DNA of 64,000 nucleotides from Olsenella timonensis (GTDB taxonomy: Bacteria > Actinomycetota > Coriobacteriia > Coriobacteriales > Atopobiaceae). Both the position numbers and the translations under genes were made by a program. Below the pieces are notes generated by a model. It had not been told where the DNA came from and ran no database searches. It worked only from the letters and a program-made list of their open reading frames with translations. Positions 2,584 through 10,425 of this stretch are shown in pieces (the stretch's first letter is position 1; each line of letters starts with the position of its first letter). The stretch is taken from contig NZ_LT635455.1 of assembly GCF_900119915.1 (NCBI RefSeq), positions 744,001 through 808,000 of the forward strand. The letters run 5' to 3'.

Positions 2584-5247
<2,664 letters not shown>

Positions 5248-5673: not shown

Positions 5674-6924
5674 ATGGCCACACCGACCGGCAGGTCCCCC
5701 AGGCGCGGGGGCTCGCACTTCTCGACCGGCGCCGCCCCGCGCGTCGCCCGGACCACCCCCCAGCCAGCCTCGGGCGCGAGCGCGCCCCGCTCGGCGCTCG
5801 CCGGCGGCCGCGTCTCGAGCCGCACCGCCGCGGCCACGCGCCGCGCCGGCTCGCACAGCCCGCGCGACCCGCGGGGAGGCCGTGGCCGCCGCCGATTCCC
5901 GCTTGCGGCGCTCGCCGTGGTCGGCGCCATCGCGATTGCCGTCGTCGCTGCCCTCGTGCTCGTCCCCGGCCTCATGGGGGGCGACGGGGAGCAGCAGGTG
6001 CAGCTCGCCGAGGAGGGCACCGAGGTCACCATCACCATCCCCGACGGCTCCGGTGCCGCCGCGGTCGCCCAGATCCTCGCCGACAACGGCCTGATCGCCG
6101 ACCAGAGCGCCTTTCTCTCCGAGGTCCGCCGCACCGAGGCGGAGTCCGCGCTCAAGAGCGGGTCGTACCGCATCGTCGCCGGCACCGACGACACGCAGAT
6201 CATCGAGCTGCTGACCAGCGGCCCCAACGCCTCGACGGCCCAGCTCGTCGTGCCCGAGGGCTACACGGTGAGCCAGATAGCCCAGGCGGTCCAGGACTCC
6301 CTCGGCATCTCCGCCGACGAGTTCCTCGCCCAGGCGAAGGCGTCGAACTACGCCGCCGACTACCCCTTCCTCTCGGGCGCGCACGAGGACTCCCTCGAGG
6401 GCTACCTCTTCCCCAAGACCTACGACTTCTCGGGCATGGAGTCGGTGACGGCCGACGCCGTGATCCGCGCCATGCTCGACCAGTACCAGATCGAGGTCTC
6501 CTCGATCGACCTCGACGCGGCCGCGAGCGCCCTCTCCGAGCGCTACGGGATCGAGCTCGACGCCAACGACGTCATCACGATGGCGTCGATCGTGGAGCGC
6601 GAGGCCGTGACCGACGAGCAGCGCCCCAAGGTCGCCTCGGTCTTCTACAACCGCCTGCGCGACGGCATGCGCCTGCAGAGCGACGCGACGCTCACCTACT
6701 CGCTCGGGAGGGCGGCCACGGCCGACGAGATCAACAGCCTCGACGACCCCTACAACACCAACCTGCGCGACGGCCTCACGCCGACGCCGATCTGCTCGCC
6801 GAGCCTCGCCTCCATCGAGGCCGCCTGCGAGCCCGCCGACACCAACTTCTACTACTTCTACATCACGCAGGACACGGAGCAGTTCTCCGAGAGCTACGAC
6901 GAGCACCGCTCCGCCTACGAGTAG
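5674..6924 (+). CDS. mltG: Endolytic murein transglycosylase MltG
   Basis: A 416-residue YceG-family protein that cleaves nascent glycan strands at the outer face of the membrane. A basic, disordered N-terminal tail of about 70 residues precedes one transmembrane helix (about 73-98). A LysM-like region follows, then the YceG domain with the catalytic Glu in ASIVEREA and the downstream YNRL and SDATLTYSLG blocks. The N-terminal tail is longer than in E. coli, as is common in actinobacteria. It lies 9 bases after ruvX. Confidence 0.93.
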   Translation: MATPTGRSPRRGGSHFSTGAAPRVARTTPQPASGASAPRSALAGGRVSSRTAAATRRAGSHSPRDPRGGRGRRRFPLAALAVVGAIAIAVVAALVLVPGLMGGDGEQQVQLAEEGTEVTITIPDGSGAAAVAQILADNGLIADQSAFLSEVRRTEAESALKSGSYRIVAGTDDTQIIELLTSGPNASTAQLVVPEGYTVSQIAQAVQDSLGISADEFLAQAKASNYAADYPFLSGAHEDSLEGYLFPKTYDFSGMESVTADAVIRAMLDQYQIEVSSIDLDAAASALSERYGIELDANDVITMASIVEREAVTDEQRPKVASVFYNRLRDGMRLQSDATLTYSLGRAATADEINSLDDPYNTNLRDGLTPTPICSPSLASIEAACEPADTNFYYFYITQDTEQFSESYDEHRSAYE

Positions 6925-6933
6925 GGGCGCCGG

Positions 6934-7434
6934 ATGGGACTTCTTCGTGCCACGCGCTACGTGGCGAGCCTGCCGCAGGTGAGCGTCGACGAGCTGGTGG
7001 ACGCCGGCGTGCGCCTCGTCCTGCTCGACCGCGACAACACCTGCGTCCCGCGTGACGCCGACGTGCCGCCCGCCGAGGTCATGGCATGGCTCGACCGCGC
7101 ACGCGAGGCGGGCCTGCGCCTGTGCCTCGTCTCCAACAACTTCCACTCCTCGCAGGTCCGCGCCAGCGCCGCCCAGATGGGCGTCGAGGCGGTCGACCAC
7201 GCCATGAAGCCGCTGCCCTTCGCGCTCGTCCGCGCGATGCGCCTCATGGGCGCCGTGCCCGGCGAGACCGTCATGATCGGCGACCAGGTCTTCACCGACG
7301 TCTGCGCCGGCAGCCTCGCCGGCGTCCGGACGATCCTCGTGCGCCCGCAGTCACGCCGGGACCTCTGGTACACGCACGTCTTCCGCGTCTTCGAGCGCCT
7401 CGCCCTGCGCGGCGTCGAGTTTGACGGCGAGTAG
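6934..7434 (+). CDS. YqeG-family HAD-IIIA phosphatase
   Basis: A 166-residue HAD-superfamily protein. Motif I is LLDRDNTCV (nucleophile Asp and acid/base Asp), motif II is in LVSNN, and motif III/IV is MIGDQVFTDV. Members are annotated as YqeG or phosphatidylglycerophosphate-phosphatase-like proteins, but the substrate cannot be read from the sequence. It is the last gene of the alaS run, and a promoter for aroK follows. Confidence 0.9.
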   Translation: MGLLRATRYVASLPQVSVDELVDAGVRLVLLDRDNTCVPRDADVPPAEVMAWLDRAREAGLRLCLVSNNFHSSQVRASAAQMGVEAVDHAMKPLPFALVRAMRLMGAVPGETVMIGDQVFTDVCAGSLAGVRTILVRPQSRRDLWYTHVFRVFERLALRGVEFDGE

Positions 7435-7520: not shown

Positions 7521-8066
7521 GTGCCGCACGGTTCGGGATACGTCGTTCATGAGGGGTGCGACCACCTCTTCTTCGTCGGCTTTCTCGGCGCTGGCAAGTC
7601 CACCCTCGCGCGCAACCTCGGCTCGCTCTTCCACCGGCCGCACGTCGACACCGATCGCCTCGTGGAGCGCGCGCTCGGCGCCTCCGTCGCGCAGATCTTC
7701 GCCCGGGAGGGGGAGGGGCGCTTCCGCGAGGCGGAGACCGCGCAGCTGCGCAAGCTCGCCGCTCGCAAGTCGCTGCTCGTGAGCTGCGGCGGCGGGATCG
7801 TGGAGCGCCCCGAGAACTGCGAGCTCATGCACGAGATGGGCGTCGTCGTCTTCCTCGACGGCGATCTCGCCGACTCGCTGCGCCAGATCCAGCGCCCCGA
7901 CCTGCGTCCCGACCTCGGCTCCGACGAGCACGCCGCCGAGGTCTACCGCCGGCGCCGCCCGCTCTACGAGGGCGCGGCCGACATCACGATCGACATCAGG
8001 GACAAGACGTTCGAGCAGGTGGCCCAGGAGTCGGGCCGGCTGCTCTGGGAGAGGGGGCTTCTGTGA
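7521..8066 (+). CDS. aroK: Shikimate kinase
   Basis: A 181-residue P-loop kinase that phosphorylates shikimate at the 3-hydroxyl. Walker A is GFLGAGKST (about residues 20-28), the substrate Asp lies in HVDTDRLVE, the substrate Arg in GRFREAE, the Gly triplet in SCGGGIV, and the C-terminal RRRRPLYE carries the second substrate Arg. All the usual active-site residues are present, so it looks functional. The GTG start follows a GGGGGAGA ribosome-binding site. It overlaps the following aroB-like gene by 4 bases. Confidence 0.9.
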   Translation: MPHGSGYVVHEGCDHLFFVGFLGAGKSTLARNLGSLFHRPHVDTDRLVERALGASVAQIFAREGEGRFREAETAQLRKLAARKSLLVSCGGGIVERPENCELMHEMGVVVFLDGDLADSLRQIQRPDLRPDLGSDEHAAEVYRRRRPLYEGAADITIDIRDKTFEQVAQESGRLLWERGLL

Positions 8067-9250
8067 GCGAGGGGCTTGATCGCGAGGAGAGGGACCAGGC
8101 GCCGGAGGCGCCCTCCGGCACCGGGGCGGACGAGGCGCCCGCCGCCGCCGCGACGCCGGCGGCACCGCGTGCCGCGCGCCAATGGGTGCTGATGCGCGGC
8201 GCCTCGATGGACCTGCGCGCGGGCGCCGGGATCCTGCCCGAGTTCCCGCGCGTGCTGCGCTCGGCGGCGGGCAGGCCCCACCTCTGCGCGCTCGTCTGCG
8301 AGGAGGGAGCCCCCGAGGGCGCCGTGCGCGACCTGCGGGAGAACCTCAGCGACCAGGGCTTTGAGGTGCGTTGTGCCACGCTCGCCCACGCCGGGTGCGA
8401 CCTCGCCGCCGTGGGCCGCTTCGACGAGGCCCTCGCCGAGGCGCACGTGACGGCAGACGACATGGTGCTCGTGGTGGGCGGGTTCGAGACGCTCTCGGTG
8501 GCGTCGTTCGCCTGCGCGGGGTGGTGCGGGGGCGTGCAGCTCGCCGAGGTGCCGCTCGACCTCCCGAGCGCGGTCACGGCCGCGACGACGCCGCGCGCCC
8601 TCGACGCCGCCGGCCTGCCGCGCATGGTCGCCCAGGACGGGGTGGCCCGCTACGCGGCCCTCGACCTCGACCTCGTTGCGGCGGACCCCGCGAGCGAGCC
8701 GGCCCTTCTCGGCTTCTCGCTCATGGTGCAGGGTGCTATGTGCGAGTCCGACCGCTCCTTCGGCAGGCTCTGGGACGCAGCCGCGGACCTCGCCGCCGGC
8801 GACGCCGACGCGCTGGCGGCCCAGCTCCAGGACTCGGTCAAGAGCCGCGGCAAGGTCGCGTCTGCGACCTCGGCGGCGATGCGCCAGTCGCTCGAGTTCG
8901 GCACGACGTTCGCGACGGCGCTGCGCTCGCTCGCGCCCGAGGTGGGCGCGGGGGTCGCGCTCGCGGACGGCATGCGCTTTGCCTCGCGGCTGGGCGTGGC
9001 CCAGGAGACGCTCTCCATCGACGACATGCTCGCCGTCGACGAGGTGCTCGACCGCCTGGGCGTGCCCACGGCGCGCGCGAGCGTGGACCCCGAGGCGCTC
9101 GCCGCGCGCATCAGGGAGGAGCGCTTCCGGCGCTCGAGCCGATTCATGCTCGCCGTCCCCCGCGGCCTGGGCCGGGTGCGCCTCGCGGTCATGACCGACG
9201 AGCTGCTCGCCGAGCACGCGGCGGCCTGGTGCGCCTCCCGCCCCGCCTGA
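8063..9250 (+). CDS. AroB-like protein lacking catalytic residues (probable pseudoenzyme)
   Basis: A 395-residue protein that aligns by eye along the length of 3-dehydroquinate synthase but has lost its active-site motifs. Where AroB has the NAD-binding GGG-x-x-GD, it has VVGGFETLSV. Where AroB has VPTTLL-x-x-VDSSVGGK, it has VPLDLPSAVTAATTP. The zinc-ligand Glu of the AEVIKYG region is missing (FSLMVQG). The FGHTFGHA zinc motif reads FGTTFATA, the HGEAV motif reads AGVALAD, and the late DKK reads EER. An Ala/Pro-rich N-terminal extension of about 40 residues precedes it. The GTG start overlaps the aroK stop. It is uninterrupted and has normal codon use, so it is maintained rather than decayed; its role is unknown. 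Confidence 0.8.
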   Translation: MSEGLDREERDQAPEAPSGTGADEAPAAAATPAAPRAARQWVLMRGASMDLRAGAGILPEFPRVLRSAAGRPHLCALVCEEGAPEGAVRDLRENLSDQGFEVRCATLAHAGCDLAAVGRFDEALAEAHVTADDMVLVVGGFETLSVASFACAGWCGGVQLAEVPLDLPSAVTAATTPRALDAAGLPRMVAQDGVARYAALDLDLVAADPASEPALLGFSLMVQGAMCESDRSFGRLWDAAADLAAGDADALAAQLQDSVKSRGKVASATSAAMRQSLEFGTTFATALRSLAPEVGAGVALADGMRFASRLGVAQETLSIDDMLAVDEVLDRLGVPTARASVDPEALAARIREERFRRSSRFMLAVPRGLGRVRLAVMTDELLAEHAAAWCASRPA

Positions 9251-9300: not shown

Positions 9301-10425
9301 ATGGCGGACGAGAAGGCATGCGCCGGGCGCGTGGAGCGCCTGCGCGAGCTCATGGCGGAGCGCGGCTACGACGCCGTGATCCTGCGCAACAACCCCGACC
9401 TGCGCTGGCTCACCGGAGCCGAGCGCACCTTCGACGACGAGGTCGCCCACACCGCCGTGATCACGGCCACGGGCCAGTGGCTCCACACCGACTCGCGCTA
9501 CTACAACACCTTCGTCGAGCGCCTCGGCGCCGACACCGCCTGGGTCCTCGACATGGACGTCGTCGATCCGGCTGCGTGGGCCGCGCGGCGCCTCGCGACG
9601 GAGCGCGCCCGCGTCGCGGCCGTCGAGGACACCTGTGACCTCGCGTTCTACGACGAGCTGCTCGTCGAGCTCTCCCGCTGCGGCGTCGCGTGCCTCACGC
9701 CGCGCCTGCACGGCGACATCTGCGACCTGCGCATGGTCAAGGACGACGAGGAGGTCGCGCTCATGCGCCGCGCGCAGGAGATCACCGACGACGCCTTCGC
9801 GCACATCTGCGAGTTCATCAAGGTGGGCATGACGGAGCAGGAGATCCGCGTGGAGCTGGAGAACTACATGCTCTCCCACGGCGCCGACGCCCTCTCCTTC
9901 GGCACGATCATCGCCTCCGGCCCCAACGGCGCCAACCCGCACGCGCAGCCCGGCGAGCGCCGCGTCGCCGAGGGGGACCTCATCGTCATGGACTACGGCG
10001 CGGGCTACCACGACTATCACGCCGACATGACGCGCACCGTCGCCGTGGGCGAGCCGGGCGCGGAGCAGCGCGCGGTCTACGACGTCGTGCGCCGCGCCCA
10101 CGAGGCGTGCGCCGCGGCGGTGCACGCCGGCGTGATCGGCCGCGACGTCCACCAGGTCGCGGTGGACGTCATCTCCGAGGCGGGCTACGGCGACTTCTTC
10201 GGCCACGGCCTCGGGCACGGCGTGGGCATCCAGATCCACGAGAACCCCAACTTCAACCGTCGCTGGGACCGCCCGGTGCCCGAGGGCTCGGTCGTGACCA
10301 TCGAGCCCGGCATCTACCTGCCCGGGCGCTTCGGGATCCGCCTGGAGGACTTCGGCCTCGTCACCGCCACGGGCTACGAGCCGTTCACGCGCTCCACGCA
10401 CGACCTCGTCGTCGTGGGGCGCTAG
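9301..10425 (+). CDS. M24-family aminopeptidase (Xaa-Pro peptidase, YqhT-like)
   Basis: A 374-residue cytoplasmic metallopeptidase with a creatinase/prolidase N-terminal domain (residues about 8-135) and a pita-bread M24 catalytic domain (about 145-370). The five dinuclear metal ligands are visible: Asp in VMDYGAG, Asp in DMTRT, His in GHGLGHGVG, Glu in TIEPGIYLP and Glu in RLEDFGLV. The ATG at 9301 follows a GAGAAAGGA ribosome-binding site, and longer in-frame upstream starts run into the aroB-like gene. The order pepP-efp is conserved in Gram-positives; here a PTS operon separates them. Confidence 0.92.
   Translation: MADEKACAGRVERLRELMAERGYDAVILRNNPDLRWLTGAERTFDDEVAHTAVITATGQWLHTDSRYYNTFVERLGADTAWVLDMDVVDPAAWAARRLATERARVAAVEDTCDLAFYDELLVELSRCGVACLTPRLHGDICDLRMVKDDEEVALMRRAQEITDDAFAHICEFIKVGMTEQEIRVELENYMLSHGADALSFGTIIASGPNGANPHAQPGERRVAEGDLIVMDYGAGYHDYHADMTRTVAVGEPGAEQRAVYDVVRRAHEACAAAVHAGVIGRDVHQVAVDVISEAGYGDFFGHGLGHGVGIQIHENPNFNRRWDRPVPEGSVVTIEPGIYLPGRFGIRLEDFGLVTATGYEPFTRSTHDLVVVGR

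Follow-up and report, generated by a model that had tools for sequence, protein, structure and literature searches.

Why does a bacterium keep a full-length relative of AroB (DHQS), whose catalytic motifs appear to have been replaced, directly beside an intact shikimate kinase? The question arises from a gene in a stretch of 64,000 nucleotides of Olsenella timonensis DNA (hereafter the window). The original prediction described its product, here called AroB', as an AroB-like protein that had lost every catalytic motif and nevertheless seemed to be under selection, possibly as a pseudoenzyme with a new binding or scaffolding role or as an enzyme with another substrate. The frame proved to be open at full length (395 aa), and its GTG start shares 4 nt with the aroK stop (GTGA, 8063-8066). 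All coordinates are given in Table 1.

Kinship and chromosomal setting of AroB'

AroB' matches the Pfam model DHQS_C with 29.3 bits (cut-off 27.6) and the NCBIfam aroB model TIGR01357 with 46 bits, which lies below the equivalog cut-off of 305, and it is thus a DHQS relative under the functional cut-off. Pfam's two DHQS models match 22 and 8 of 40 AroB' members (E up to 0.001), and the profile match to 3qbd reached 88 bits. A structure model built from 8 sequences (mean pLDDT 67) had DHQS chains as its 28 best Foldseek matches (E 1e-11 to 3qbe), with VIA Z values of 12-15 to DHQS chains; its domains match those of DHQS, but the arrangement between them differs (TM 0.4, rmsd ~13) and is unsure. 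The predicted kinship with AroB is confirmed by the DHQS_C, TIGR01357 and Foldseek matches, and AroB' has the fold of the DHQS superfamily, with similarity across most of its length. As a functional DHQS enzyme, on the other hand, it fails on the features tested.

Copies were aligned in three groups, i.e., 67 degenerate copies (group A, 60 from the Atopobiaceae, the family of the window, and 7 from family f10, which we take to be the Coriobacteriaceae), 30 canonical copies from aro clusters (group B), and 13 copies from other families (group C). In genome G054, the halves of AroB' appear fused with mltG and yqeG (L075, L010), which we took as a misassembly because a second alaS fragment lies inside the ORF; L075 was therefore left out, and the counts for group A are based on 66 rows. 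The scrambled G054 locus (L151, 3707-8284) has the AroB' halves separated and the extra alaS fragment in one ORF, probably through misassembly.

Table 1. Features of the AroB' locus with their coordinates in the window
Feature	Coordinates	Strand	Basis
mltG-like gene, upstream neighbour	5674..6924	+	Order same in loci reaching that far
yqeG-like HAD phosphatase	6934..7434	+	Pfam HAD families; upstream of AroB' in 65/66 loci
aroK1, shikimate kinase; P-loop, D34, R58 and GGG kept	7521..8066	+	Pfam SKI 127.8 bits; site table, 62 copies
AroB', degenerate DHQS paralogue, 395 aa, GTG start	8063..9250	+	Open frame; DHQS_C and TIGR01357 matches; site counts over 66 copies
GGFETLSVASF..WCGG, replacing NAD loop GGGxxGD and YxRG motif	8477..8533	+	S145, W154 and C155 newly fixed
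Segment replacing DSSVGGK	8564..8596	+	P177 59/66, R178 46/66
KSRGK..RQSLEFG, with R262 at the K250 place and R274 at the R264 place	8840..8902	+	Alignment of 66 copies
C-terminal segment RRSSRFMLAVPR..GRVRL..EHAAAWC, DKK motif lost	9128..9232	+	R360 62/66, R373 65/66, H385 64/66
pepP-like M24 peptidase	9301..10425	+	Pfam Peptidase_M24 236 bits; downstream in 65/66 loci

The genes yqeG, aroK, AroB' and pepP are tightly spaced on one strand (yqeG and mltG are the names that we presume to apply). The lone locus without pepP downstream (L047) lies on a contig that ends soon after AroB'. An aroK gene adjoins AroB' in 62 of the 66 loci. The P-loop Gly and Lys, D34, R58 and GGG of AroK1, to which we assign their usual roles by assumption, are retained in 61 or 62 of these 62 copies. 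At the AroB' locus, aroK was not found in G036, G047, G048 and G051 (4/66 loci), nor in four further genomes (G038, G105, G107 and G115). In five aroK-less loci (L139, L141, L145, L147 and L148), a prepilin-peptidase-like ORF, as judged by eye, fills the space; between yqeG and AroB', it spans 3726-4199 (+) in L145 and, in reverse-complement coordinates, 3097-3585 in L147 and 2851-3327 in L148. One might guess that the role of AroB' is linked to the functions of yqeG, aroK and pepP.

Active-site positions and selection on AroB'

The loss of the active site was evaluated at 18 positions set by motif, with site numbers and residue roles that we assume from the Aspergillus DHQS. The canonical reference consisted of the 30 B rows and 11 C rows, with two degenerate C rows (L109 and L111) kept apart. 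All 18 residues are kept in all canonical rows, whereas group A copies retain 0 to 4 of them (mean 1.7) and the AroB' of the window retains just one, R264. The zinc ligands E194, H271 and H287 occur in 3, 2 and 0 of the 66 A copies, respectively, in comparison with 41/41 each in the canonical rows; 61 of the A rows have none, five have one, and none has two, while the window AroB' has 0/3. Lysines are likewise rare in group A (K152 in 1, K197 in 4, K250 and K356 in 0 of 66), and the third Gly and D119 of the NAD loop GGGxxGD are found in 0/66. Among the other canonical residues, T139 is seen in 25/66 copies, H275 in 6, D146 and N268 in 1 each, and R130 in none.

The claim that every catalytic motif was lost thus holds for the zinc ligands, the NAD loop and the lysines, which are replaced, but not for R264, which is retained in 65/66 copies (R274 in the window), and the place of K250 is taken by an Arg in 62/66 (R262 in the window). 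An Arg also stands at the place of K152 in 46/66 copies. The conservation of R264 and of the K250-to-R exchange might be structural. The original prediction had named zinc ligands conserved in shifted positions as evidence against it; these were looked for in the 66 copies and were not there. Residues of the required ligand type occur no more than 3 columns away from the original position in just 4, 3 and 4 of the 66 copies, and a screen for His, Cys, Asp and Glu kept in at least 70% of them found no conserved replacement metal triad, H385 (64/66) being the sole His. Nearby relocation of the zinc ligands is ruled out by these counts and by H385 as the sole conserved His.

Several residues have instead become newly fixed in group A, i.e., S145 at the place of D119 (63/66), P177 at the place of G151 (59/66), W154 (66/66), C155 (61/66), R262 (62/66), R373 (65/66) and H385 (64/66). 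Seven residues, D133, G139, W154, R305, R309, D326 and P366, are invariant across the 66 copies, and the spacing between the K250 and R264 places is 11 residues in all of them vs 13-14 in the canonical rows. Within group A, the columns of D119, G151, K250 and R264 rank at the 3rd-10th percentile of entropy. K152 and K356 lie at the 40th-44th and E194 and K197 at the 66th-69th percentile, while the most variable former sites are H287 (98th), GGG (95th), H271 (90th), H275 (86th) and N268 (84th). Averaged over the 18 sites, the entropy percentile is 56% in group A vs 13% in the canonical rows. The high variability of the H287, H271, H275 and N268 columns looks as if the metal site had been given up and not rebuilt.

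Decay-like dN/dS among orthologs had been named as a further sign against the prediction. Under a GY codon model, run on 31 genus genomes for AroB', AroK1 and PepP and on 9 genomes for canonical AroB, omega was 0.083 for AroB', 0.043 for AroK1, 0.041 for PepP and 0.065 for canonical AroB. For AroB', the lnL was -18307.5 with omega free vs -20289.3 with omega = 1 on the same tree, a difference of ~1982. By the codon model, AroB' is under purifying selection, in line with the selection suggested originally, and its decay is rejected. Simple counting looks more relaxed, with a median dN/dS of 0.59 and a maximum of 1.10 for AroB' (464 pairs, 0.1 < dS < 1.5), compared to 0.22 for AroK, 0.36 for PepP and 0.36 for canonical AroB (35 pairs). 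Considering that the GC3 of AroB' averages 0.94, we believe that counting may underestimate dS. With a mean identity of 60%, AroB' also evolves more quickly than the other genes in the comparison (AroK 85%, PepP 83%, canonical AroB 71%). No internal stop occurs in the matches for the 66 group A copies. The genome profile search flagged one stop in 19 listed A matches; for eight of the flagged genomes (G007, G008, G009, G015, G016, G018, G024 and G058) no stop was seen in the separate relatives search, and the profile thus most likely overran the terminal stop there.

Distribution, the shikimate pathway and descent

A profile of 40 rows, searched across 140 genomes of the family, matched in 140/140, and 139/140 were judged to carry AroB'. 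The exception is G124, where a canonical copy is the sole match and yqeG was also not found, so that the block is lost or absent from the assembly. G115 and G038 gave a low profile score, yet AroB' is in place at the locus, and the AroB' matches in G035, G054, G143 and G145 are fragmentary or partial. The relatives search gave matches to AroB' in 90/100, a number in which single canonical copies are counted. In f10, 63/65 genomes matched at E < 1e-100, G220, which gave three matches, at 5e-52, and G213 (72% complete) at 2e-21; by score, about 64/65 would carry AroB', with site residues examined in 7 f10 copies. Other families gave weaker E-values, like those obtained for native or cluster AroB.

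The search for a second, canonical aroB proposed along with the original prediction succeeded, as one was found in the same genome at G000:C1:1082691-1083689 (339 bits). It belongs to an aro cluster (L123) whose ORFs were read as DAHP synthase, prephenate dehydrogenase, aroB, aroA, aroC, pheA, an aroE-aroK fusion and an ORF with a C-terminal aroQ; aroC and the second shikimate kinase are also supported by separate searches. This second kinase is the C-terminal part of the 430-aa aroE-aroK fusion (L123 14590-15882, G000:C1 1090589-1091881). Minus-strand ORFs resembling a PTS membrane component and a KDPG-type aldolase (L123 7807-10029) split aroB from aroA. Since the cluster holds a canonical aroB and a kinase, the aroK and AroB' of the window are extra.

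AroB' also persists where the pathway itself seems to be gone. Of the 140 family genomes, five (G036, G038, G103, G115 and G177) gave no match for chorismate synthase, and all five have AroB' between yqeG and pepP, with aroK present too in G103 and G177. No canonical aroB was detected in G036, G038, G115 and G177, and G103 has a partial match to it at a contig end; a genome-wide search for SKI found none in G036 and G038. G115 is 94% complete, while G036 (86%), G038 (57%), G103 (79%) and G177 (86%) are incomplete drafts, and absences in these four may thus be gaps. In G066 (family f7, 94% complete), aroK, a degenerate AroB and pepP are consecutive, and chorismate synthase was not found. The retention of AroB' in genomes seemingly without the pathway suggests that it probably has another job.

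Concerning descent, an unrooted tree of 61 rows (LG+C20), which has long branches, united group A and G066 in a single clade (100/100), apart from the cluster copies and from the native AroB of other families; group B likewise forms a single clade (100/100). At the 13 C loci, aroK lies beside AroB in 10, and pepP is present in 13/13, downstream on the same strand in 12. Among 19 columns separating B from C, A resembles C in 6, B in 2 and neither in 11. The gene order, the tree and the column counts together would fit a descent of AroB' from the native copy. G066 and G115 are two long rows that join each other in the tree, and their placement may be wrong.

Further degenerate copies are found in G096, G064 and G097, of which G096 and G064 also carry a canonical copy. 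In the free tree, G064 and G097 cluster with native copies of f5 (100/99), and clade A takes in G096 at 79/95, a node that is not starred. A single grouping of all degenerate rows was not rejected (p-AU 0.23); based on this value and on the placement of G096, independent losses are suggested but not shown. The native AroB of G064 (L111) is part-degenerate, with K152, H275 and H287 kept and E194, H271 and R264 lost, and the canonical copy lies elsewhere. G074 has two AroBs above the family cut-off (L161 and L162; 349 and 342 bits), one of native and one of cluster type, a pair that could possibly represent a stage preceding catalytic loss.

Possible roles of AroB' and comparison with known systems

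We propose, with a probability of roughly 70%, that AroB' is a native, vertically inherited AroB that has lost its DHQS activity and is retained for a role outside the shikimate pathway. Its source would be the aroK-aroB-pepP arrangement of the Coriobacteriales, passed on by vertical descent, and the catalytic loss would have come after a second aro cluster took over the DHQS reaction. AroB' would then be non-catalytic and act through binding, as is suggested by the fixation of residues where the active site used to be and by its persistence without the pathway; a cleft whose fixed residues are a Ser, a Pro and two or three Arg may hold an anionic ligand, or the surface may hold a protein partner. 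A broader and more tentative scenario, which we hold to be possible but rather doubtful, is that a second role, linked to the chromosomal block, was present in the AroB of the Coriobacteriales or was acquired by it, and that the second aro cluster, or pathway loss, left only that role. This would have resulted in a housekeeping AroB' family with the DHQS fold, independent of the pathway and near-universal in two families of the Actinomycetota, and G096, G064 and G097 would repeat the same unmasking.

The two options left by the original prediction, a pseudoenzyme or an enzyme with another substrate, do not fare equally. A pseudoenzyme, with its site lost in a conserved orthologous group under purifying selection, is preferred to an enzyme with another substrate, given that the columns which once held the metal-site His are among the most variable, and this part of the prediction is thereby supported. 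A sugar phosphate cyclase-fold enzyme whose chemistry is new and metal-free, and whose Arg cluster binds a phosphate or carboxylate substrate, would be consistent with the purifying selection, with the strong fixation of S145, P177, R262 and R274 at former sites, and with the new substrates acquired by fold members elsewhere, as described in PMC4426668. We nevertheless regard it as unlikely, as the zinc ligands, the GGG loop and most lysines are gone, a conserved metal replacement was not found, and many ex-catalytic columns are variable, while conserved acid/base candidates are limited to D133, D320, D326 and H385, D133 being usual in canonical copies too.

AroB' could also be thought of as a subunit that regulates AroK1 or the canonical AroB, acting as a heteromer in the shikimate pathway. 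DHQS enzymes are dimers, the AroB' start overlaps aroK1, and aroK1 adjoins AroB' in most loci with its site residues intact. We consider this improbable, however, given that AroB' is kept in the eight genomes without aroK at the locus (G036, G038, G047, G048, G051, G105, G107 and G115) and in the four where canonical AroB was not found. For the same reason, a role tied solely to the adjoining shikimate kinase is not supported, and the aroK-less loci weaken AroK partnership as the only role. The idea of a functionless relic in decay, or of an operon spacer coupling aroK-pepP translation, is one to which we give hardly any credence: the lost site of the ancestral activity, the fast evolution and the relaxed counting ratios would suit it, but an omega of 0.083 that is preferred to omega = 1 by ~1982 lnL units, matches without internal stops, retention in 139/140 genomes and seven invariant residues all argue against it.

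Automatic annotation may label AroB' 3-dehydroquinate synthase, and its resemblance to AroB is enough for such a label, which would mislead metabolic models. The fold of a pathway enzyme kept in ~200 genomes (by profile), seemingly independently of the pathway, also offers a natural case for the study of catalytically dead paralogues, and the conservation of AroB' singles out residues for mutation.

In comparison with AroB as defined by TIGR01357, AroB' has the same fold, a near full-length alignment and R264, and it adjoins aroK and pepP like the native AroB of other Coriobacteriales; on the other hand, its zinc ligands, NAD loop and catalytic lysines are replaced, and the K250-R264 loop is 2-3 residues shorter. 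The fold is also common to 2-deoxy-scyllo-inosose synthase (2gru), ValA (4p53) and desmethyl-4-deoxygadusol synthase (5tpr), to which profile matches are weaker. These and other sugar phosphate cyclases bind metal at the DHQS places, and the residues expected of such cyclases in these columns are not conserved in AroB'; the titles of the 2gru, 4p53 and 5tpr structures name bound metal and NAD, whereas AroB' is without conserved metal ligands. The NCBIfam family TIGR04425 (P_lya_rel_AroB) matches 10/40 AroB' members (E up to 0.001), but the AroB' of the window scores 13.7 bits against a cut-off of 400.

Pseudoenzymes retained after duplication or replacement form a general class. Among the papers listed by our literature searches, we found no pseudoenzyme of the DHQS fold; PMC11528492 reports a TrpC-TrpF pseudoenzyme, which is not a DHQS. 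With its conserved fold, lost site and purifying selection, AroB' resembles this class.
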